A stretch of 34,498 nt of DNA from an uncultured Bacteroidota bacterium (GTDB lineage: Bacteria > Bacteroidota > Bacteroidia > 2-12-FULL-35-15). The notes under the pieces were generated by a model that worked only from the letters and a program-made list of their open reading frames with translations, was not told where the DNA came from and made no database searches. Within the stretch, counting starts at the first letter, position 1, and the number at the start of each line of letters is the position of its first letter. This document shows positions 2-33,128 of the stretch, in pieces. The stretch covers positions 1 through 34,498 of the forward strand of contig CAIQBY010000064.1 in the NCBI GenBank assembly GCA_903870175.1. Direction: 5' to 3'. The position numbers were made by a program, and so were the translations under genes.

Positions 2-3000
2 GATGTAACGTCTGCTTATTCGTGGATTGCTTCTAATAATCCAAATACGTCGGGCGAATCAACAAGTTTGCAAACTTCTAATACTTTATCCGATGTAATA
101 ACCAACAATACAGCAGTCGCACAAACGGTAACCTATACAGTTACACCATCAGCGACGGTTTTAGGTAGCTGTCCTGGAAATACACAAACAGTAACTGTAA
201 CTGTTAACCCGTCAACTACGGCAAATGCAGGAGGAAACGGAACTATATGTTCAAATGGCACATATACACTTTCAGGAACAATTGGAGGAGGGGCAACATC
301 ATTAAACTGGACAACCAGCGGAAGTGGTACTTTTGATAATGCATTATTGGCAAACGCTACCTATACTCCTTCCCCTGCGGACATTACGTTCGGAAGTGTT
401 ACTTTAACCATCACTACTAACGACCCTCCAGGACCATGTTCTTCTGCAACCGATGCTATGGTGCTTACTATTAATCCTGCGGCAATTGTCAATGCAGGCA
501 CTAATGCAACAATATGTGCCGGCAATACCTATACTTTATCAGGTTCTGTTGCAGGAGGAACAACTTCAACAACCTGGACAACCAGCGGAAGTGGAACATT
601 TGATGATGCAAGTTTGCAGAATCCTACTTATACACCTTCTCCAACAGACATTACAAACGGAAGCGTGACTTTGACAATTACTTCAAATGACCCATCAGGA
701 CCTTGTCCGGCTGTGAACAGCGCAATGATATTAACAATTAACCCAGTTACTATTGCAAATGCAGGGGCAGATGCAGCAATTTGTCAAAGTACTTCTTATA
801 CATTATCAGGTTCTATCGGAGGAAGTGCAACTACCTTGTTATGGACAACCAGCGGAAGCGGAAGTTTCAATAATGCTGCATTGGCAAACGCAATTTATAC
901 TCCTTCAATAGCAGACAATACTGCTGGTAGCGTAACATTATATATTACTACTAACGACCCAATAGGTCCTTGTTCTTTTACTATTGATTCTATGCTTTTG
1001 ACAATAAACCCTCCTGTTACTGCCAATGCAGGTGTTGATGCCACAATATGCGCCGGTGACACATATACTTTGTCAGGCTCAGTTGGTGGAGGAGCAACTT
1101 CTTCTGCCTGGACCACTAATGGAAGCGGAACATTCGACAATGCAGCTTTACCTAATGCGACTTATACTCCATCTTCAACAGATATTTCCAACGGAAGCGT
1201 TACATTAACAATTACAACAAATGACCCATCAGGACCATGTCAATCAGTTAGTGATGCGATGATATTGAATATTAATCCTGCTGCAACAGCAAATGCAGGG
1301 GCAGATGCCTCAATTTGTCAAAACAGTTCTTACTTGTTATCGGGATCAATTGGTGGAAGTGCAGCTTCTTTAACTTGGTCGAGCAGTGGAACAGGAACAT
1401 TTGATAATATCAATTTAGCCAATGCAACATATACTCCTTCAGCCAATGATATTACAGCAGGAACAGTAACTTTAACAATTACAACAAATGACCCGGTGGG
1501 GATTTGTCCCGCTGTAAATGATAATATGATTTTATCAATTACACCAAATGATAATGCTGCATTTTTATATACAACTTCAACGTTTTGTAAAACAGCGCCA
1601 AATCCGACTCCAACCATAACAGGTCTTTCAGGTGGTACATTTACTTTCACTCCTGCTGGCTTGTCATTAAATAACAATACCGGCACAATTAATCTTTCTC
1701 TAAGTTCGGTTGGTAACTATACAATATTTTATACAACAAACGGTCCTTGCCCGGCAAAAGATTCAATGAACATTACTATAACTACCGCACCAATAGCAAC
1801 TTTTAGTTATAGTCCTTCTTCATATTGCCAATTCAGCAGTCCGAATCCGTTGCCCTCATTTACATCAGGTGCAAGTGCTGGCGTATTTACTGCAATTCCA
1901 TCGGGTTTAGTTTTTGTAAGTAATATTACCGGGGAAGTTGATTTGCAGCTTAGTTCGCCTGGAAACTATACAGTTACAAATACGATTGCAGCAGCAAATG
2001 GATGCTCACAAGCTATAGCAACAAGCAATTTGACAATTAATGCCGCAGTTATTGCAAATGCAGGCTCTGATGCTGTAATGTGTTCTGGTTCTCCTTATAC
2101 TTTGTCAGGGTCAATTGGCGGCGGAGCTACATCATTAACTTGGACAACAACCGGAACAGGATTATTTAATAATGCAACTCTTGCAAACGCAACTTACACT
2201 CCATCAGCTGCAGATAATTCAGGAGGATCAATTTATTTAATATTGAATGTAACTGACCCTGCAGGATTTTGCCCTGCACTCGATTCAACGGTTTTAACAA
2301 TTAATTCTGCGGCAACAGTTAATGCAGGTATTAGCAGTGTAATTTGTGCAGGAAGCACCTTTACTTTAAATGGGACTTTTGGTGGAAGCGCTACATCCGC
2401 AACATGGAGTTCAAGCGGAACAGGAACTTTTGATGATGCTGCTTTAACAAATGCGACTTATACGCCTTCATTAACTGATGTGTCATCAGGAAGTGTTATT
2501 CTTACCTTAACCACAAATAATCCTTCTGGCCCATGTGATTCTGTGTCCGACGCAATTGTATTAACAATTAACTCGCTTCCAATTGCTAATGCAGGGCCAG
2601 ATGCATCAATCTGTTCTTCTTCTACTTATTCAGCGACAGCATCGATTGGAGGCTCAACAACTTCAGTTACTTGGAGTACAAGCGGGACGGGAACATTTAA
2701 CAATTCTAATGTGCCAATTTCTGTTTACACGCCATCAGCCGCGGATATTGCTGCTGGAAGTCTATTTTTAATTGTCACCTCCAATAATCCTGCAGGACCT
2801 TGTAATGCAGTAGTTGATTCAATGTTATTAACCATTAACATGGCTACAACAGTTTCAGCAGGTACAAATGCGGTAATTTGTTCTGGAAGTGCGTATTTAT
2901 TATCAGGTACATTCCGTGGCGGAGCAACTTCTGCTAATTGGAATACAAGCGGTAGTGGAACATTTAATGATCCAACGTTAGCCAATGCAACTTACACTCC

Positions 3001-6000
3001 TTCGGCAGCAGATATTTCATCTGGAAGTGTAATTCTCACATTAACAACAAATGATCCGTCTGGACCGTGCAACGCAGCAACAGATGCAATAGTTTTGACA
3101 ATAAACCCTCTTCCAACGGCTAATGCAGGCCCAGATGCTACAATTTGTTCTTCTTCTCATTATACTGCTACCGCTTCGATAGGAGGATCAACTTCATCTA
3201 TTAGCTGGAGTACAAGTGGAACTGGAACTTTTAACAACCCGAATATACCAACAACAACTTATACTCCTTCTGCAGCCGATATTTCAGCAGGAAGTGTTTT
3301 TTTAATAATTACAACAAACGACCCGATCGGACCATGTAACGCAGTAAAAGATTCAATGTTACTTACAATAAATTCTGCCGCCACTGTAAGTGCAGGGTTG
3401 GATGTGGTAATTTGCAATAGCAATTCTTATACTTTATCCGGATCTTTTGGTGGTGGTGCAACCTCTTCATTATGGACAACCAGTGGAACTGGGACATTTG
3501 ATAATGCAACTCTGACAAATGCAACTTACTCTCCTTCAGCTGCAGATATTGCAGCAGGGAATGTTATATTGACTATTACAACAGACGACCCAGCTGGAGT
3601 TTGCTCTTCTGTTTCTGACTTCATTACTCTAACAATTAATCATCCACCTATTGCCAACGCAGGACCGGATGATGCAGTTTGTGCCAATTCAACTTATAAC
3701 TTATCAGGTTCTTTTGGAGGCGGTGCAATTTCGGTAACATGGGGCACTACAGGTACCGGTTCTTTCAATAATGTTAATCTGCCTAATGCAACCTATACTC
3801 CTTCTGCCAGTGATATTTCTGCCGGCAGTGTAATTTTATTTATTACTACTAATGATCCTCCCGGACCCTGCTCTTCCATTTCCGACTCACTAGTTTTGAC
3901 TATCAATCCTCCAGCCACTGCTAATGCAGGAATTGACGATGTAATATGTTCAGGAAGTACTTATAATTTATCCGGTTCGGTTGGTGGTTCTGCTACTTCA
4001 CTGACTTGGATTACAAGCGGAAGCGGAACCTTCAATAATACAACTATTGGAAATGCAACATACACTCCTTCTGCAAATGATATTACACTTGGAAATGTAA
4101 CATTAACAATAACTTCTAATGATCCTGCGGGACCTTGTCCATCAGTAAGCGATGCTATGGTATTAACAATAAATCAAAATGCAACGACAAATGCAGGCGC
4201 TAATGCATCTATTTGTGCCAACAGTTCAATTATATTGGCAGGTACAATTGGTGGCGGTGCATCCTCTTTGAACTGGACCTCTTCAGGAAGCGGAACTTTT
4301 AATAATCCTAATAGTGCTACGGCGACATATACACCTTCAGTTGCTGATATTGCAGCAGTCAGCGTGACGTTAACGATTACTACTAACGACCCTGCAGGTC
4401 CTTGCACACCGGCAACCGATGCAATGATTTTAACAATTACCCCCGTTGCTTTGGCAAATGCCGGTTCTGATGATGTGACATGCGCAGGCAATAGCTATAC
4501 TCTTTCGGGTGCGATTTCAGGTTCGGCAACTTCAGGAATTTGGAGCAGTAGTGGTACTGGAACATTTAACACTACCTCATTGCTTAATGCAGTTTATACT
4601 CCGTCCGGAGCAGATATAATTGCTGGAAGTGTTACATTAACTCTTACAACAAACGACCCTCCTGGACCATGTCCTGCCGCAACAGATGCGATGATTCTGA
4701 CAATAAATCCTAATGCCACTGTAAATGCCGGTATTGATGGTAGTGTTTGTGCAAATTCAACCTATTCGCTGTCTGGTACCTATGGCGGAAGCGCTACTTC
4801 TGCTACTTGGACAACTCTGGGAACTGGGACTTTTAGTAATCAAGCGAGTCCTAACTCAACATATACTCCATCGGCAAGTGATATTGCTACAGGCAGCGTG
4901 CATATAATTTACGCTACAAACGACCCTGTTGGAGTTTGCCTGCCTACGAGTGATACAATGCTTTTAACAATTAATCCTTTGCAGATTGCGGCTTTCATTT
5001 ATTCCAGCTCTACATTCTGCTTGACAGGTACTAATCAAACACCGGTTATTTCGGGCGTTTCAGGAGGTACTTTCTTTTCAACACCCGTTGGTTTATCTAT
5101 AAATTCAAATACAGGGACAATTACTTTAAGTACAAGTACTATAGGTACATATACCATAACGTATGCAACTCCAGGTCCTTGCCCGAATACAAGTACATTC
5201 ACTGTTACAATAACTACTGCTCCGTCAGCAACCTTCAGTTATAATCCAACTGCTTATTGCCAAAACAGCGGTTCAAGCGCAACTCCAACTTTCCCATTAG
5301 GCGCCAGTGCAGGCACTTTTAGTGCTATACCGGCAGGTTTGTCGTTTATTAATGTTAATACAGGGGTAGTTGATTTAGCGAACAGCGCACCCGGGACATA
5401 CACCGTAACTAACTTGATACCTGCCTCTGGTGGTTGTGCATCAGCAACAGCAACAAATACAATTTCTATTGGAGCATTGGCTACCGCCAATGCAGGAGTA
5501 GATGCTGCAATCTGTTCTAATGTAAACTATACTTTATCAGGAACAATAGGAGGAAGTGCAAGTTCATTGATATGGATTACGAGCGGAACTGGAACATTTA
5601 ACAATCCAAGTATAGCAAATGCAACTTACACGCCTTCTGCAGCGGATATTGCAGGTGGATCTGTTACGTTGACAATAAATACAGACGATCCTGCAGGTGC
5701 TTGTCCATCAGCCAACGATGCCTTGCAGTTGACAATTTTACCTGCTGCTACAGTAAATGCAGGTGCTGATGCGGTAATTTGCGGAAGCAGTACTTATGCA
5801 TTATCAGGTATTATAGGAGGAGGTGCAACTTCAGCTATATGGACTACGAGCGGAACAGGCAGTTTCAACAATATTAATCTTGTTAATGCCATATATACTC
5901 CTTCAGCAGCTGATATCAATGCAGGAAGTGTAACACTTACTCTTACAACCAATGATCCTGCCGGCCCATGCCCTTCGGTTTCGGATGCAATGACATTAAC

Positions 6001-8254
6001 ATTTAATCCACCTGCTACTGCAAATGCAGGAGCGGATGCTGCAATCTGTTCGGGAAATACGTATGCATTATCCGCAGTAATTGGAGGTGCTGCATCATCG
6101 TTAAACTGGACAACAAGTGGAACCGGGAATTTTAATAATGTTTCTTCTGCCTCGGCAATTTATACTCCATCAGCTGCTGACATAAGTGCGGGAAGCGTTA
6201 CTTTGACGATAACTACAAATGACCCTGCGGGAATTTGCGCTCCCGCATCCGATAATTTAATATTAACAATTAACCCATTAAATGTTGCGACATTCACTTA
6301 CCCGGGTTCTACATTTTGTCAAACAGGACCGAACCCAACGCCAACTTTCGCAGGATCCGGTGCATTTACATCTTCACCAGTGGGATTAACGCTTAATTCA
6401 TCAACAGGAACTATAAATTTAGCGTCAAGCACAGCAGGTACTTATACTATTACAAACTTTACTTCAGGTCTTTGTCCTGATACGGCAACGGCAACTGTAA
6501 CCATTACAACTTCATTTAATGCCAATTTCGGTTATTCAGGAAGTTTATTCTGTCAGGCAGGCAGCCCTGACCCTTTGCCTACATACATAGGAACAGGCAG
6601 TGGTGGAATATTTACTGTTGCTCCGGCAGGTTTAGTGGTTAATAATGTTACCGGTGAAGTGAATTTGGCTATTTCAGCTCCTGGAAATTATATTGTTACC
6701 AATACAATTTCTGCTTCCGGAGGATGCGCTGCAGCAGTGGATACCGGTGCGATAACAATTACAGCACATGATAATGCTGCTTTCAGTTATTCTGGAAATT
6801 CATTCTGTAATTCAGCAGCTAATCAAACACCGACAATTACCGGATTGGCAGGCGGAACATTTATAGCATCATCTCCTAATTTAGTGATAGACGCTTCTAC
6901 AGGAATTATCTCAATGAGCGCAAGTCAGCCAGGCGCTTACAGCATTACATATACTACAAATGGTATTTGTCCGTTCTCAACCTCAGTGCCGTTCACTATC
7001 ACTCCGGCGCCTGATGCATCATTTAGTTATGGAACAGAAGTGGTATTTTGTATAAATTCTACTGACCCAATTCCTACATTGGCTGGTGTAAGCGGTATTT
7101 TCAGTGCTTCGCCTGCCGGCATCACAGTTAACGCTTCTACAGGTGAAATAATTCTTGCTTCAACTATTCCGGGAACTTATGTAATCAAGGATTCGATATC
7201 TGCTGCCAATGGCTGTTCGGCTGCGGTAAGTACTACTACTATTACAATTACTCCGCTTGATGATGCCGGATTCAACTACTCGCAACCAACTTATTGTCTC
7301 GGAGGAAGTAATCCGACACCTACGATTACTGGTATTTCGGGAGGTGTATTCAGCTCTACTCCGGTAGGATTAACGCTTAATTCAGCTACAGGAGAAATAA
7401 CAATTGCGTCGAGCATTGCAAGCAGTTATACAATAACTTATGCTACCGCAGGTTCCTGCCCTAATTCTTCTACACAAGTAGTGAATATTATTGCAGCGCC
7501 GGTTGCGAATGCTGGCAGAGACAGTGTTATTAACTGCGGACAAACAATCCAGCTGAATGGTGCTTCTACCAATGCTGCAACTTATTTTTGGACAACAATA
7601 GGTGGCACAATTTTGTCGGGAGCAACTACTCTTATTCCAACGATTAGCGCACCAGGCACCTATATTTTAACGGTAACAAATCCGGCAGGCTGTCAGGTTT
7701 CGGACACAGTAATAATTACCGGTGCTACTCGCCCTACGGCTTCATTTACCACCAATCCAAATCCGGCTACCGGCAATGCGCCTTTGGATATAGCGTTTAG
7801 CAATACGAGTACCAATGCTACGTCCTATATATGGGACTTATGCAGTGGATGCCCTACAAGTATTACGCAGGATGCAAGTTATATTTATAATACATCAGGC
7901 ACCTACACTGTATATTTAGTGGCAATAAACGGTACCTGCAGGGATACGGCTTCGACAAAAGTGATTGTCAGTGATTCATATTCGTTGACATCGGCTAACG
8001 TATTTACGCCTAATGACGATGGAATAAATGATATATTCAACTTTAAGGTTACCGGTGTTACTGCGCTTGATGCGCTTATTTATGACCGCTGGGGATTGAA
8101 AATGTATGAATGGACTACAGTGAACGGCGGTTGGGATGGGCATACCGTTACCGGATTAAAAGCTGCAGAAGGAACGTATTTCTATATTGTTACTTTGACA
8201 GATGATATAGGAAATGAACATGTGGAAAAAGGAAGTTTTATGCTGATGAGGTAA
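2..8254 (+). CDS. Giant repeat-containing T9SS substrate / adhesin-like protein with C-terminal gliding-motility (CHU_C, type B sorting) domain; 5'-truncated by window edge
   Basis: The frame is open from base 2 (DVTSAYSWIASNNPNTSGES...). The listed start at 68 is an internal TTG. There are about 19 copies of an ~86-aa repeat (xANAGxDAxICxxSxYTLSGSxGGxATSxxWTTSGSGTFNN..NATYTPSxADIxxGSVTLTxTTNDPxGPC), interleaved with ~9 copies of a second repeat (xAxFxYxxxxFC..). These are followed by a PKD-like domain and C-terminal SANVFTPNDDGINDIFNFKV..IYDRWG..WDG....EGTYFYIVTLTD..KGSFMLMR. Confidence 0.93.
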   Translation, partial: DVTSAYSWIASNNPNTSGESTSLQTSNTLSDVITNNTAVAQTVTYTVTPSATVLGSCPGNTQTVTVTVNPSTTANAGGNGTICSNGTYTLSGTIGGGATSLNWTTSGSGTFDNALLANATYTPSPADITFGSVTLTITTNDPPGPCSSATDAMVLTINPAAIVNAGTNATICAGNTYTLSGSVAGGTTSTTWTTSGSGTFDDASLQNPTYTPSPTDITNGSVTLTITSNDPSGPCPAVNSAMILTINPVTIANAGADAAICQSTSYTLSGSIGGSATTLLWTTSGSGSFNNAALANAIYTPSIADNTAGSVTLYITTNDPIGPCSFTIDSMLLTINPPVTANAGVDATICAGDTYTLSGSVGGGATSSAWTTNGSGTFDNAALPNATYTPSSTDISNGSVTLTITTNDPSGPCQSVSDAMILNINPAATANAGADASICQNSSYLLSGSIGGSAASLTWSSSGTGTFDNINLANATYTPSANDITAGTVTLTITTNDPVGICPAVNDNMILSITPNDNAAFLYTTSTFCKTAPNPTPTITGLSGGTFTFTPAGLSLNNNTGTINLSLSSVGNYTIFYTTNGPCPAKDSMNITITTAPIATFSYSPSSYCQFSSPNPLPSFTSGASAGVFTAIPSGLVFVSNITGEVDLQLSSPGNYTVTNTIAAANGCSQAIATSNLTINAAVIANAGSDAVMCSGSPYTLSGSIGGGATSLTWTTTGTGLFNNATLANATYTPSAADNSGGSIYLILNVTDPAGFCPALDSTVLTINSAATVNAGISSVICAGSTFTLNGTFGGSATSATWSSSGTGTFDDAALTNATYTPSLTDVSSGSVILTLTTNNPSGPCDSVSDAIVLTINSLPIANAGPDASICSSSTYSATASIGGSTTSVTWSTSGTGTFNNSNVPISVYTPSAADIAAGSLFLIVTSNNPAGPCNAVVDSMLLTINMATTVSAGTNAVICSGSAYLLSGTFRGGATSANWNTSGSGTFNDPTLANATYTPSAADISSGSVILTLTTNDPSGPCNAATDAIVLTINPLPTANAGPDATICSSSHYTATASIGGSTSSISWSTSGTGTFNNPNIPTTTYTPSAADISAGSVFLIITTNDPIGPCNAVKDSMLLTINSAATVSAGLDVVICNSNSYTLSGSFGGGATSSLWTTSGTGTFDNATLTNATYSPSAADIAAGNVILTITTDDPAGVCSSVSDFITLTINHPPIANAGPDDAVCANSTYNLSGSFGGGAISVTWGTTGTGSFNNVNLPNATYTPSASDISAGSVILFITTNDPPGPCSSISDSLVLTINPPATANAGIDDVICSGSTYNLSGSVGGSATSLTWITSGSGTFNNTTIGNATYTPSANDITLGNVTLTITSNDPAGPCPSVSDAMVLTINQNATTNAGANASICANSSIILAGTIGGGASSLNWTSSGSGTFNNPNSATATYTPSVADIAAVSVTLTITTNDPAGPCTPATDAMILTITPVALANAGSDDVTCAGNSYTLSGAISGSATSGIWSSSGTGTFNTTSLLNAVYTPSGADIIAGSVTLTLTTNDPPGPCPAATDAMILTINPNATVNAGIDGSVCANSTYSLSGTYGGSATSATWTTLGTGTFSNQASPNSTYTPSASDIATGSVHIIYATNDPVGVCLPTSDTMLLTINPLQIAAFIYSSSTFCLTGTNQTPVISGVSGGTFFSTPVGLSINSNTGTITLSTSTIGTYTITYATPGPCPNTSTFTVTITTAPSATFSYNPTAYCQNSGSSATPTFPLGASAGTFSAIPAGLSFINVNTGVVDLANSAPGTYTVTNLIPASGGCASATATNTISIGALATANAGVDAAICSNVNYTLSGTIGGSASSLIWITSGTGTFNNPSIANATYTPSAADIAGGSVTLTINTDDPAGACPSANDALQLTILPAATVNAGADAVICGSSTYALSGIIGGGATSAIWTTSGTGSFNNINLVNAIYTPSAADINAGSVTLTLTTNDPAGPCPSVSDAMTLTFNPPATANAGADAAICSGNTYALSAVIGGAASSLNWTTSGTGNFNNVSSASAIYTPSAADISAGSVTLTITTNDPAGICAPASDNLILTINPLNVATFTYPGSTFCQTGPNPTPTFAGSGAFTSSPVGLTLNSSTGTINLASSTAGTYTITNFTSGLCPDTATATVTITTSFNANFGYSGSLFCQAGSPDPLPTYIGTGSGGIFTVAPAGLVVNNVTGEVNLAISAPGNYIVTNTISASGGCAAAVDTGAITITAHDNAAFSYSGNSFCNSAANQTPTITGLAGGTFIASSPNLVIDASTGIISMSASQPGAYSITYTTNGICPFSTSVPFTITPAPDASFSYGTEVVFCINSTDPIPTLAGVSGIFSASPAGITVNASTGEIILASTIPGTYVIKDSISAANGCSAAVSTTTITITPLDDAGFNYSQPTYCLGGSNPTPTITGISGGVFSSTPVGLTLNSATGEITIASSIASSYTITYATAGSCPNSSTQVVNIIAAPVANAGRDSVINCGQTIQLNGASTNAATYFWTTIGGTILSGATTLIPTISAPGTYILTVTNPAGCQVSDTVIITGATRPTASFTTNPNPATGNAPLDIAFSNTSTNATSYIWDLCSGCPTSITQDASYIYNTSGTYTVYLVAINGTCRDTASTKVIVSDSYSLTSANVFTPNDDGINDIFNFKVTGVTALDALIYDRWGLKMYEWTTVNGGWDGHTVTGLKAAEGTYFYIVTLTDDIGNEHVEKGSFMLMR

Positions 8255-22188: not shown

Positions 22189-22211
22189 AGTTGTTTGTGT
22201 TATTTCTTATT

Positions 22212-22370
22212 ACACCTATCCCTAAGATTATTTTAATTACTTCTGGATATCAGGGCTAAAGCCAATTTTGGTGTTATTTGATAGTAACCCTAGCCTTAAG
22301 GCTAGGGTTATTGGAACATTAGTATTAGTGGGCTTTAGCCCAATTTAAAATAATCTTAGGGATAGGTACA
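22212..22370. mobile_element. MITE-like non-autonomous element with 23-bp terminal inverted repeats and 9-bp target-site duplication
   Basis: TIRs ACCTATCCCTAAGATTATTTTAA (22214-22236) and its perfect reverse complement (22345-22367). TTTCTTATT direct repeats flank it at 22203-22211 and 22371-22379. Inside is a perfect 26-bp palindrome TAACCCTAGCCTTAAGGCTAGGGTTA (22285-22310). Confidence 0.8.
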
Positions 22371-22389
22371 TTTCTTATTGATAGTTAGG

Positions 22390-22485
22390 TTTATTAGGTT
22401 GTCGGTTAATACCCCGAGGCTCTGCCTCGGAATTAAAAAAATCCTTTAACTGATACCTCGAGGCTCTGCCTCGGGGTAATTCATT
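22390..22485. repeat. REP/BIME-like repeat, copy A (96 bp, two CCGAGGCtctGCCTCGG hairpins)
   Basis: Identical over 96 bp to 33033-33128. Confidence 0.95.
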
Positions 22486-22556: not shown

Positions 22557-22724
22557 AGTTTATTGCATAAGGTTGATAGTTTACGATAAACTGTTAGAGG
22601 TTTGCGTAAAACTTACAACAGTTTACCGTAAAAGGATGACAGGAATCCGTAAACCTCTATAGGTTTATCATAAATTGTCAACAGGAAACGACAAACCTCT
22701 AACAGGTTACTGTTAAAGGTTGTT
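22557..22724. repeat. 21-bp palindromic tandem array 2 (8 units, degenerate AGTTTACCGTAAACCTCTAAC)
   Basis: Unit starts 22557, 22578, 22599, 22620, 22641, 22662, 22683, 22704 at exact 21-bp spacing; cores such as AGTTTACGATAAACT. Confidence 0.8.
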
Positions 22725-22839
22725 CTCTCGAAAAATGATGGTTTACTCCTGTAAAATAAGTTATCATATTTACTACATCCTTAAAAAGAACTTTTGCAAA
22801 AGTAACTCTAATAATCGGTTATGTGGTAATTATAATTAC

Positions 22840-33032: not shown

Positions 33033-33128
33033 TTTATTAGGTTGTCGGTTAATACCCCGAGGCTCTGCCTCGGAATTAAAAAAATCCTTTAACTGATACC
33101 TCGAGGCTCTGCCTCGGGGTAATTCATT
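33033..33128. repeat. REP/BIME-like repeat, copy B (96 bp)
   Basis: Identical over 96 bp to 22390-22485, same orientation. Confidence 0.95.

Follow-up and report, generated by a model that had tools for sequence, protein, structure and literature searches.

A short Bacteroidia MITE with IS1595-type ends and an interior of probable REP-like palindromes linked to Y1 transposases

MITEs are usually viewed as deletion remnants of one insertion sequence (IS). REPs, the repeats of RAYT transposases, have a conserved GT(A/G)G head, an enzyme with a Y...NP signature and a copy number over 100, and ends of the Merlin/IS1016 type are described as starting with GG. The MITEs known for bacterial ISs, among them the Correia elements, RUP and the ISCca4-related MITE of Cardinium, are short and non-coding, share their terminal inverted repeats with an IS and are found in several copies (PMC2817692, PMC9769881). 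Elements of the IS1595 family make 8-bp duplications, which are AT-rich for ISApl4 (PMC12561309; PMC8101967), and the transposases of TnpA-Y1 subclass 1.2, which carry a Y---Q--HH signature, are reported to have in general no typical terminal secondary structures (PMC6006769). The element analysed here is like the Correia, RUP and Cardinium MITEs in its shortness, its lack of coding capacity, its terminal repeats in common with an IS and its presence in several copies. It is unlike them in having an IS1595-type IS as its likely parent, and in having as its interior a three-palindrome module that is found also in MITEs with unrelated ends and beside Y1 transposase genes. We give a probability of about 0.8 to the reading that it is a non-autonomous DDE-type MITE, moved by an IS1595 transposase, that carries the REP-like palindromes of a single-strand (HUH, Y1) transposase.

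The element lies in a 34,498-bp stretch of DNA from an uncultured Bacteroidota bacterium (contig CAIQBY010000064.1; the whole stretch is referred to here as the window), within a 650-bp gap between two minus-strand genes (Table 1). When the whole window was scanned blind for inverted repeats with direct flanks, this element ranked first, and no match came from five shuffled windows. The perfect 23-bp arms of its inverted repeat (22214-22236 and 22345-22367) match nothing in the window beyond each other and did not appear in 100 shuffles, and its folding energy is 10 standard deviations under that of shuffled sequences (z = -10.4). No open reading frame of 80 or more amino acids is present inside the element, which is thus non-coding.

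Table 1. Positions in the window of the element, its component repeats and the adjacent gene
Feature	Position	Strand	Remarks
Complete MITE, IS1595-type ends	22211..22370	.	160 bp
Left target-site duplication TTTCTTAT	22203..22210	.	Exact repeat of 22371-22378; 8-bp register common to relatives
Right target-site duplication TTTCTTAT	22371..22378	.	
Left terminal inverted repeat TACACCTATCCCTAAGATTATTTTAA	22211..22236	+	23 bp perfect from 22214; resembles IS ends of G034, CGCACTTATCCCTATGATTATTTTTT / CGCACTTATCCCTAAGATTATTTTTT
Right terminal inverted repeat	22345..22370	-	
Three-hairpin core, putative REP-like unit of one clade of Y1 (HUH) transposases	22253..22342	.	Covariance model R1, both strands; same palindromes beside six Y1_Tnp genes
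Left small palindrome GGGCTAAAGCCA, consensus GGGCTAAAGCCC	22253..22264	.	
Central 26-bp perfect palindrome	22285..22310	.	Stem varies in pairs across genomes
Right small palindrome GGGCTTTAGCCC	22330..22341	.	GGGCT/AGCCC changed to GGACT/AGTCC in six relatives
Adjacent gene, 206 aa	21568..22188	-	No Pfam or NCBIfam match; paralogues in genus

These features bear out the original prediction of a MITE-like element with 23-bp perfect terminal repeats and a perfect 26-bp central palindrome, with some adjustment of detail. The length is 160 bp and not 159 bp. The flanking direct repeat is exact, but it is 8 bp long rather than 9-10 bp: in relatives the duplication begins 4 bp outside CCTATCCC, and since all of them share this 8-bp register the additional A and T match the ends of the element by chance. 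Both of the expected GGGCTWWAGCC palindromes are present, although the left one has one mismatched end base. The element does adjoin the start codon of the 206-aa gene, at a distance from the ATG of 22 bp rather than ~24 bp; the nearest homologues of this gene are distant only, at <50% identity, and a search through them for the empty site of the insertion gave no orthologous site and no empty allele. The element may have displaced the promoter of the gene, as was suggested; scans for Bacteroidetes-type and for sigma-70 promoters gave no candidate in or beside the element. The same gap contains, at 22570-22740, several near repeats of GTAAACCTCTA / GTTTACGATAAACTGTTAGAGG, upstream of the element. 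The window also holds a single open reading frame of 2728 aa (68-8254, plus strand) and type IX secretion genes (PorP/SprF, CHU_C domain).

The genome of origin has copies on contigs C64, C289 (two full copies), C359/C413, C357/C351 and C169, together with fragments; those beyond the window copy, with duplications of their own, answer the check proposed earlier. The C169 copy is a diverged relative, the same inside but with a different end sequence. Four half copies at contig ends pair by a common 8-mer, TAGAAAAT for the ends of C359 and C413 (L003/L005) and TAATTAAA for the start of C357 and the end of C351 (L004/L006); it follows that assembly breaks fell within two MITE copies that are almost identical. 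Contigs C359-C413 and C357-C351 are joinable across these copies, the assembly having been split by short repeats. An exact 8-bp duplication flanks 10 of 12 elements with related ends, compared with 0 of 132 mismatched pairs, and the flanking 8-mers of the remaining two match at 7/8 and 6/8 positions. The suggestion that the window copy was inserted fairly recently has the intact duplication on its side, but is weakened by a difference of 8-13% from the other full copies; the two copies split between contig ends, nearly identical to each other, look younger.

What, then, moves the element? Complete IS1595-family elements with matching terminal repeats, the source of transposase that one would look for in the case of a MITE, occur in the same genus, the genome of origin having partial ones only. 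One of these, in an uncultured Bacteroidetes MAG (G034, CAIWDF010000158.1), is a 1638-bp IS flanked by the duplication ATATTTTT; its ends are those compared with the window element in Table 1. A second, of 1432 bp, is found in G019 and has ends CGCACCTATCCCTTTAAAGG, the variant found in the C169 MITE. Both transposases pass PF12762 (DDE_Tnp_IS1595), and that of G034 is also above the NCBIfam IS1595 cut-off (NF033547). In the genome of origin the IS1595-type IS is in pieces: C6 and C409 hold left ends, and a contig end of C139 holds a right end that bears this terminal repeat together with the first 23 amino acids of the G034 transposase (91% identity); these pieces would belong to an IS with ends ACTTATCCCTAWGA. 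The assembly of this genome has no complete cognate transposase, and the full one, on C339, has different ends. It belongs to a 4.5-kb relative (C339 27229-31763; L099 1230-5764), long for an IS, whose IS1595-type ends, flanked by an exact 8-bp duplication (AACAAAAT), enclose a complete IS1595 transposase and several further open reading frames. A 404-bp internal-deletion derivative on C55 (L088 2208-2611), with IS1595-type ends and the duplication TATTTTTA, is possibly an intermediate toward a MITE. This derivative keeps an apparent transposase start (MATNIL) and then diverges.

The element differs from the IS1595 family (IS1595/ISXO2/IS1016) in being without a gene, and the IS ends of this group start with CGCACYTATCC rather than with the GG of Merlin/IS1016-type ends; the MITE ends vary in their outermost bases, which do not agree with the CGCA of the IS. 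The likeness lies in the 8-bp AT-rich duplications (PMC12561309, PMC8101967) and in the DDE_Tnp_IS1595 domain of the relatives, to which a zinc ribbon is added in the C339 enzyme. The end sequence is unmatched in viral contigs. These comparisons make it very likely that the element is driven by an IS1595-type transposase acting from elsewhere in the genome, and the identification of the element as a MITE is supported by its short non-coding sequence, its terminal inverted repeats, its multiple copies with their own duplications and the ends that it shares with autonomous elements.

The interior is not confined to these ends. R1, a covariance model for the three-hairpin core built from MITE copies of the genus, has matches in 18 of the 36 genomes searched in the genus; at the level of the class it matches 28 of 295 genomes, from 12 of 155 genera. 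Copies per genome are few, at 8 places in the genome of origin and tens at most in the genus. The small hairpins have the form GGGCTWWAGCCC and accompany the central hairpin, and paired changes occur at two stem positions across genomes. Pairing of the left and right palindromes as one long stem was also considered; it is broken in six sequences, and three separate hairpins are preferred. The core is found within MITEs of at least four end kinds, whose duplications are of 8, 9, 5-6 and 3 bp, and also alone. Ends CACTACTAACCGACTAA are associated with 9-bp duplications, ends CAATAGTTCGGTAGTTTTT with 5-6-bp duplications and ends GAGCCTGTTTAAA with 3-bp duplications (TTA or TAA), and core copies were also seen with TTAACGCAAGTTGCTAGTT ends. 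From their end sequences and duplication lengths, the types CACTACTAACCGACT, CAATAGTTCGGTAGT and GAGCCTGTTTAAA appear to be distinct. In other genera some cores are without obvious outer repeats; one stands alone beside tadA in a species of another genus, where the other six species are without a core and the spacer is too diverged to fix ends.

Conversely, the ends are found without the core. A ~162-bp MITE in a palsa_968 Bacteroidetes MAG has the same IS1595-type ends (ATCCCTAAGATTATTTT) and exact 8-bp flanks (GAAAATTG and GTTATTCC) around an unrelated interior. In G005, near-identical type-B arms enclose either the core or a GAGATTCCTCACTTCG palindrome, at sites 1.2 kb apart, and a 37-bp element consists of ends alone. 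The core is thus a module separate from the MITE ends, and the two occur independently. The original prediction had treated the inner palindromes as parts of this MITE; they are present in it but are not private to it, a point that was missed. The second palindromic cargo between the type-B ends of G005 (GAGATTCCTCACTTCGTTCGGAATGACA...; L250 357-546 and L251 313-505) has similar palindromes beside tadA in another genus, and in G021 (L181, L182) core-like hairpin arrays with extra palindromes lie inside an element with ends AACGTGAGTTTCG. An Rfam search with the window and the core loci gave nothing at curated scores, the weak matches resembling hairpin chance, and the only literature match to the palindrome letters was the Haemophilus influenzae REP GTAGGGTGGGCTTtAGCCCACC, which bears a GTAG head and has some likeness to the right hairpin.

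A second enzyme is implicated by the genes beside which the core is found. Six Y1_Tnp genes of the genus adjoin core palindromes, four on both sides and two on one, with the nearest palindromes ~30-100 bp from the matched Y1 domain. The six enzymes form one clade in a tree of 34 Y1 enzymes (support 100/99, 100% of bootstraps), which none of 500 label shuffles equalled. All six have the Y---Q--HH signature of TnpA-Y1 subclass 1.2, with DH.H and WQ present where visible, and no Y...P motif was found. Simple counting of motifs round Y1 genes picked out 2 of 23 loci, controls giving no match, and implied that only a subset of Y1 genes is flanked by the core. Other Y1 enzymes are flanked by their own, different palindromes, and in 47% of 32 Y1 genes the two flanks share a word of 11 bases or longer in inverted orientation, compared with 4.7% of mismatched pairs. 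Cores beside Y1 genes match R1 less well (~22-46 bits) than the MITE cores of the genus (up to 100 bits), from which the model was built. Position and clade together suggest that the core belongs with subclass 1.2 Y1 enzymes. The agreement with that subclass (PMC6006769) extends to its occurrence in Bacteroidetes, the difference being that many of the genes here are palindrome-flanked.

No core-flanked Y1 gene was found in the genome of origin, where C26, C141 and C48 were inspected, and the core copies found there are all inside IS1595-type MITEs; in this genome the module seems to travel as cargo only. A different set of palindromes, GAGGCTCTGCCTCG, is present in the window as two copies of an inverted pair, at 22409-22478 and ~33052-33121. 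A Y1 (IS200-like) transposase gene on C26 (L321, L288) is flanked by these palindromes too, and they look like REP-like repeats of that transposase.

Although the core palindromes behave like REPs, we do not file them as RAYT/REP because the enzymes have the subclass 1.2 signature and RAYT scores below cut-off: the five core-flanked enzymes scanned reach 20-34 bits with the RAYT model NF047646 (cut-off 80), and all five score above the IS200 cut-off. The core itself is without the conserved GT(A/G)G head, the bases beside its stems varying (TCA, TTT, AGT and others), its enzymes do not have the class 2 Y...NP signature, and its copies per genome fall well short of the >100 that serves as a REP criterion. 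It shares with REP/BIME systems the inverted palindromes on both sides of a Y1 gene, the paired stem changes and the dispersed intergenic copies (PMC2817692).

Could the interior have a simpler origin? If this were an ordinary IS1595-derived MITE, its inner palindromes would have arisen within it, unrelated to Y1 enzymes, and the resemblances elsewhere would reflect exchange of MITE ends. The confinement of the core to IS1595-type MITEs in the genome of origin is what this account would predict, and the C169 copy, with its retained interior and changed ends, also fits; it has more difficulty with those cores of other genera that lack obvious outer repeats and with the flanking of a single clade of Y1 genes, and we consider it quite unlikely. 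Assignment of the ends to another DDE family, such as an IS1-like one, with IS1595 merely similar, seems very improbable: an IS1 model does match the cognate enzyme weakly (30 bits, below cut-off), and the lack of an assembled complete cognate transposase in the genome of origin leaves some room for it, but the end sequence, the 8-bp AT-rich duplication and the complete elements of G034 and G019 all fit IS1595.

Two other accounts look to the host. The hairpins may be kept for a cell function, as a strand-symmetric terminator or RNA-stabilising unit that makes carrier MITEs less harmful and so allows them to persist. Co-variation of the stems, the almost exclusively intergenic position of the copies and a reverse complement of the same layout, which would act in either orientation, are all in keeping with such a role. 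No T-run follows the stems, however, a terminator scan marks nothing inside the element, no Rfam family is matched, and convergent neighbours are not overrepresented at the 44 core-bearing loci (31 tandem, 7 divergent, 6 convergent). We regard a cell function as unlikely here, while noting that it is compatible with the carriage of REP-like palindromes by an IS1595-moved MITE. Barely credible, in contrast, is that the element is an immobile, structured regulatory region of the 206-aa gene with fortuitous flanking repeats; the closeness of the start codon is in its favour, but multiple copies stand by unrelated genes, each with its own duplication, and homologues of the gene have no element upstream.

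Returning to the IS1595-moved MITE with REP-like cargo, we envisage an IS1595-family transposase, supplied from another site in the genome, that would recognise the 26-bp ends, then cut and paste the element, leaving the 8-bp duplication. The middle would be cargo of other origin, a three-hairpin REP-like unit on which a Y1 enzyme may act; in related genomes this unit flanks a subclass 1.2 Y1 transposase gene and lies scattered between genes. Once taken into this MITE, and into others with different ends, the unit would spread by cut-and-paste. Its entry could have come about through Y1-driven insertion into a MITE or through an exchange of ends around the core.

A more general proposal, to which we give about even odds, is that the three hairpins form a dual-mobility module in Bacteroidia: a REP-like calling card of subclass 1.2 HUH enzymes that has been captured repeatedly as cargo by MITEs belonging to four or more unrelated cut-and-paste systems, with both ends and cargo being swapped. 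Ends and contents would then have separate histories, the contents pointing to a second, chemically unrelated transposase. If this is true, carriage within DDE elements allows palindromic repeats to outlast their own transposase and to spread beyond its reach, and there is now a candidate DNA substrate for an orphan group of HUH enzymes.
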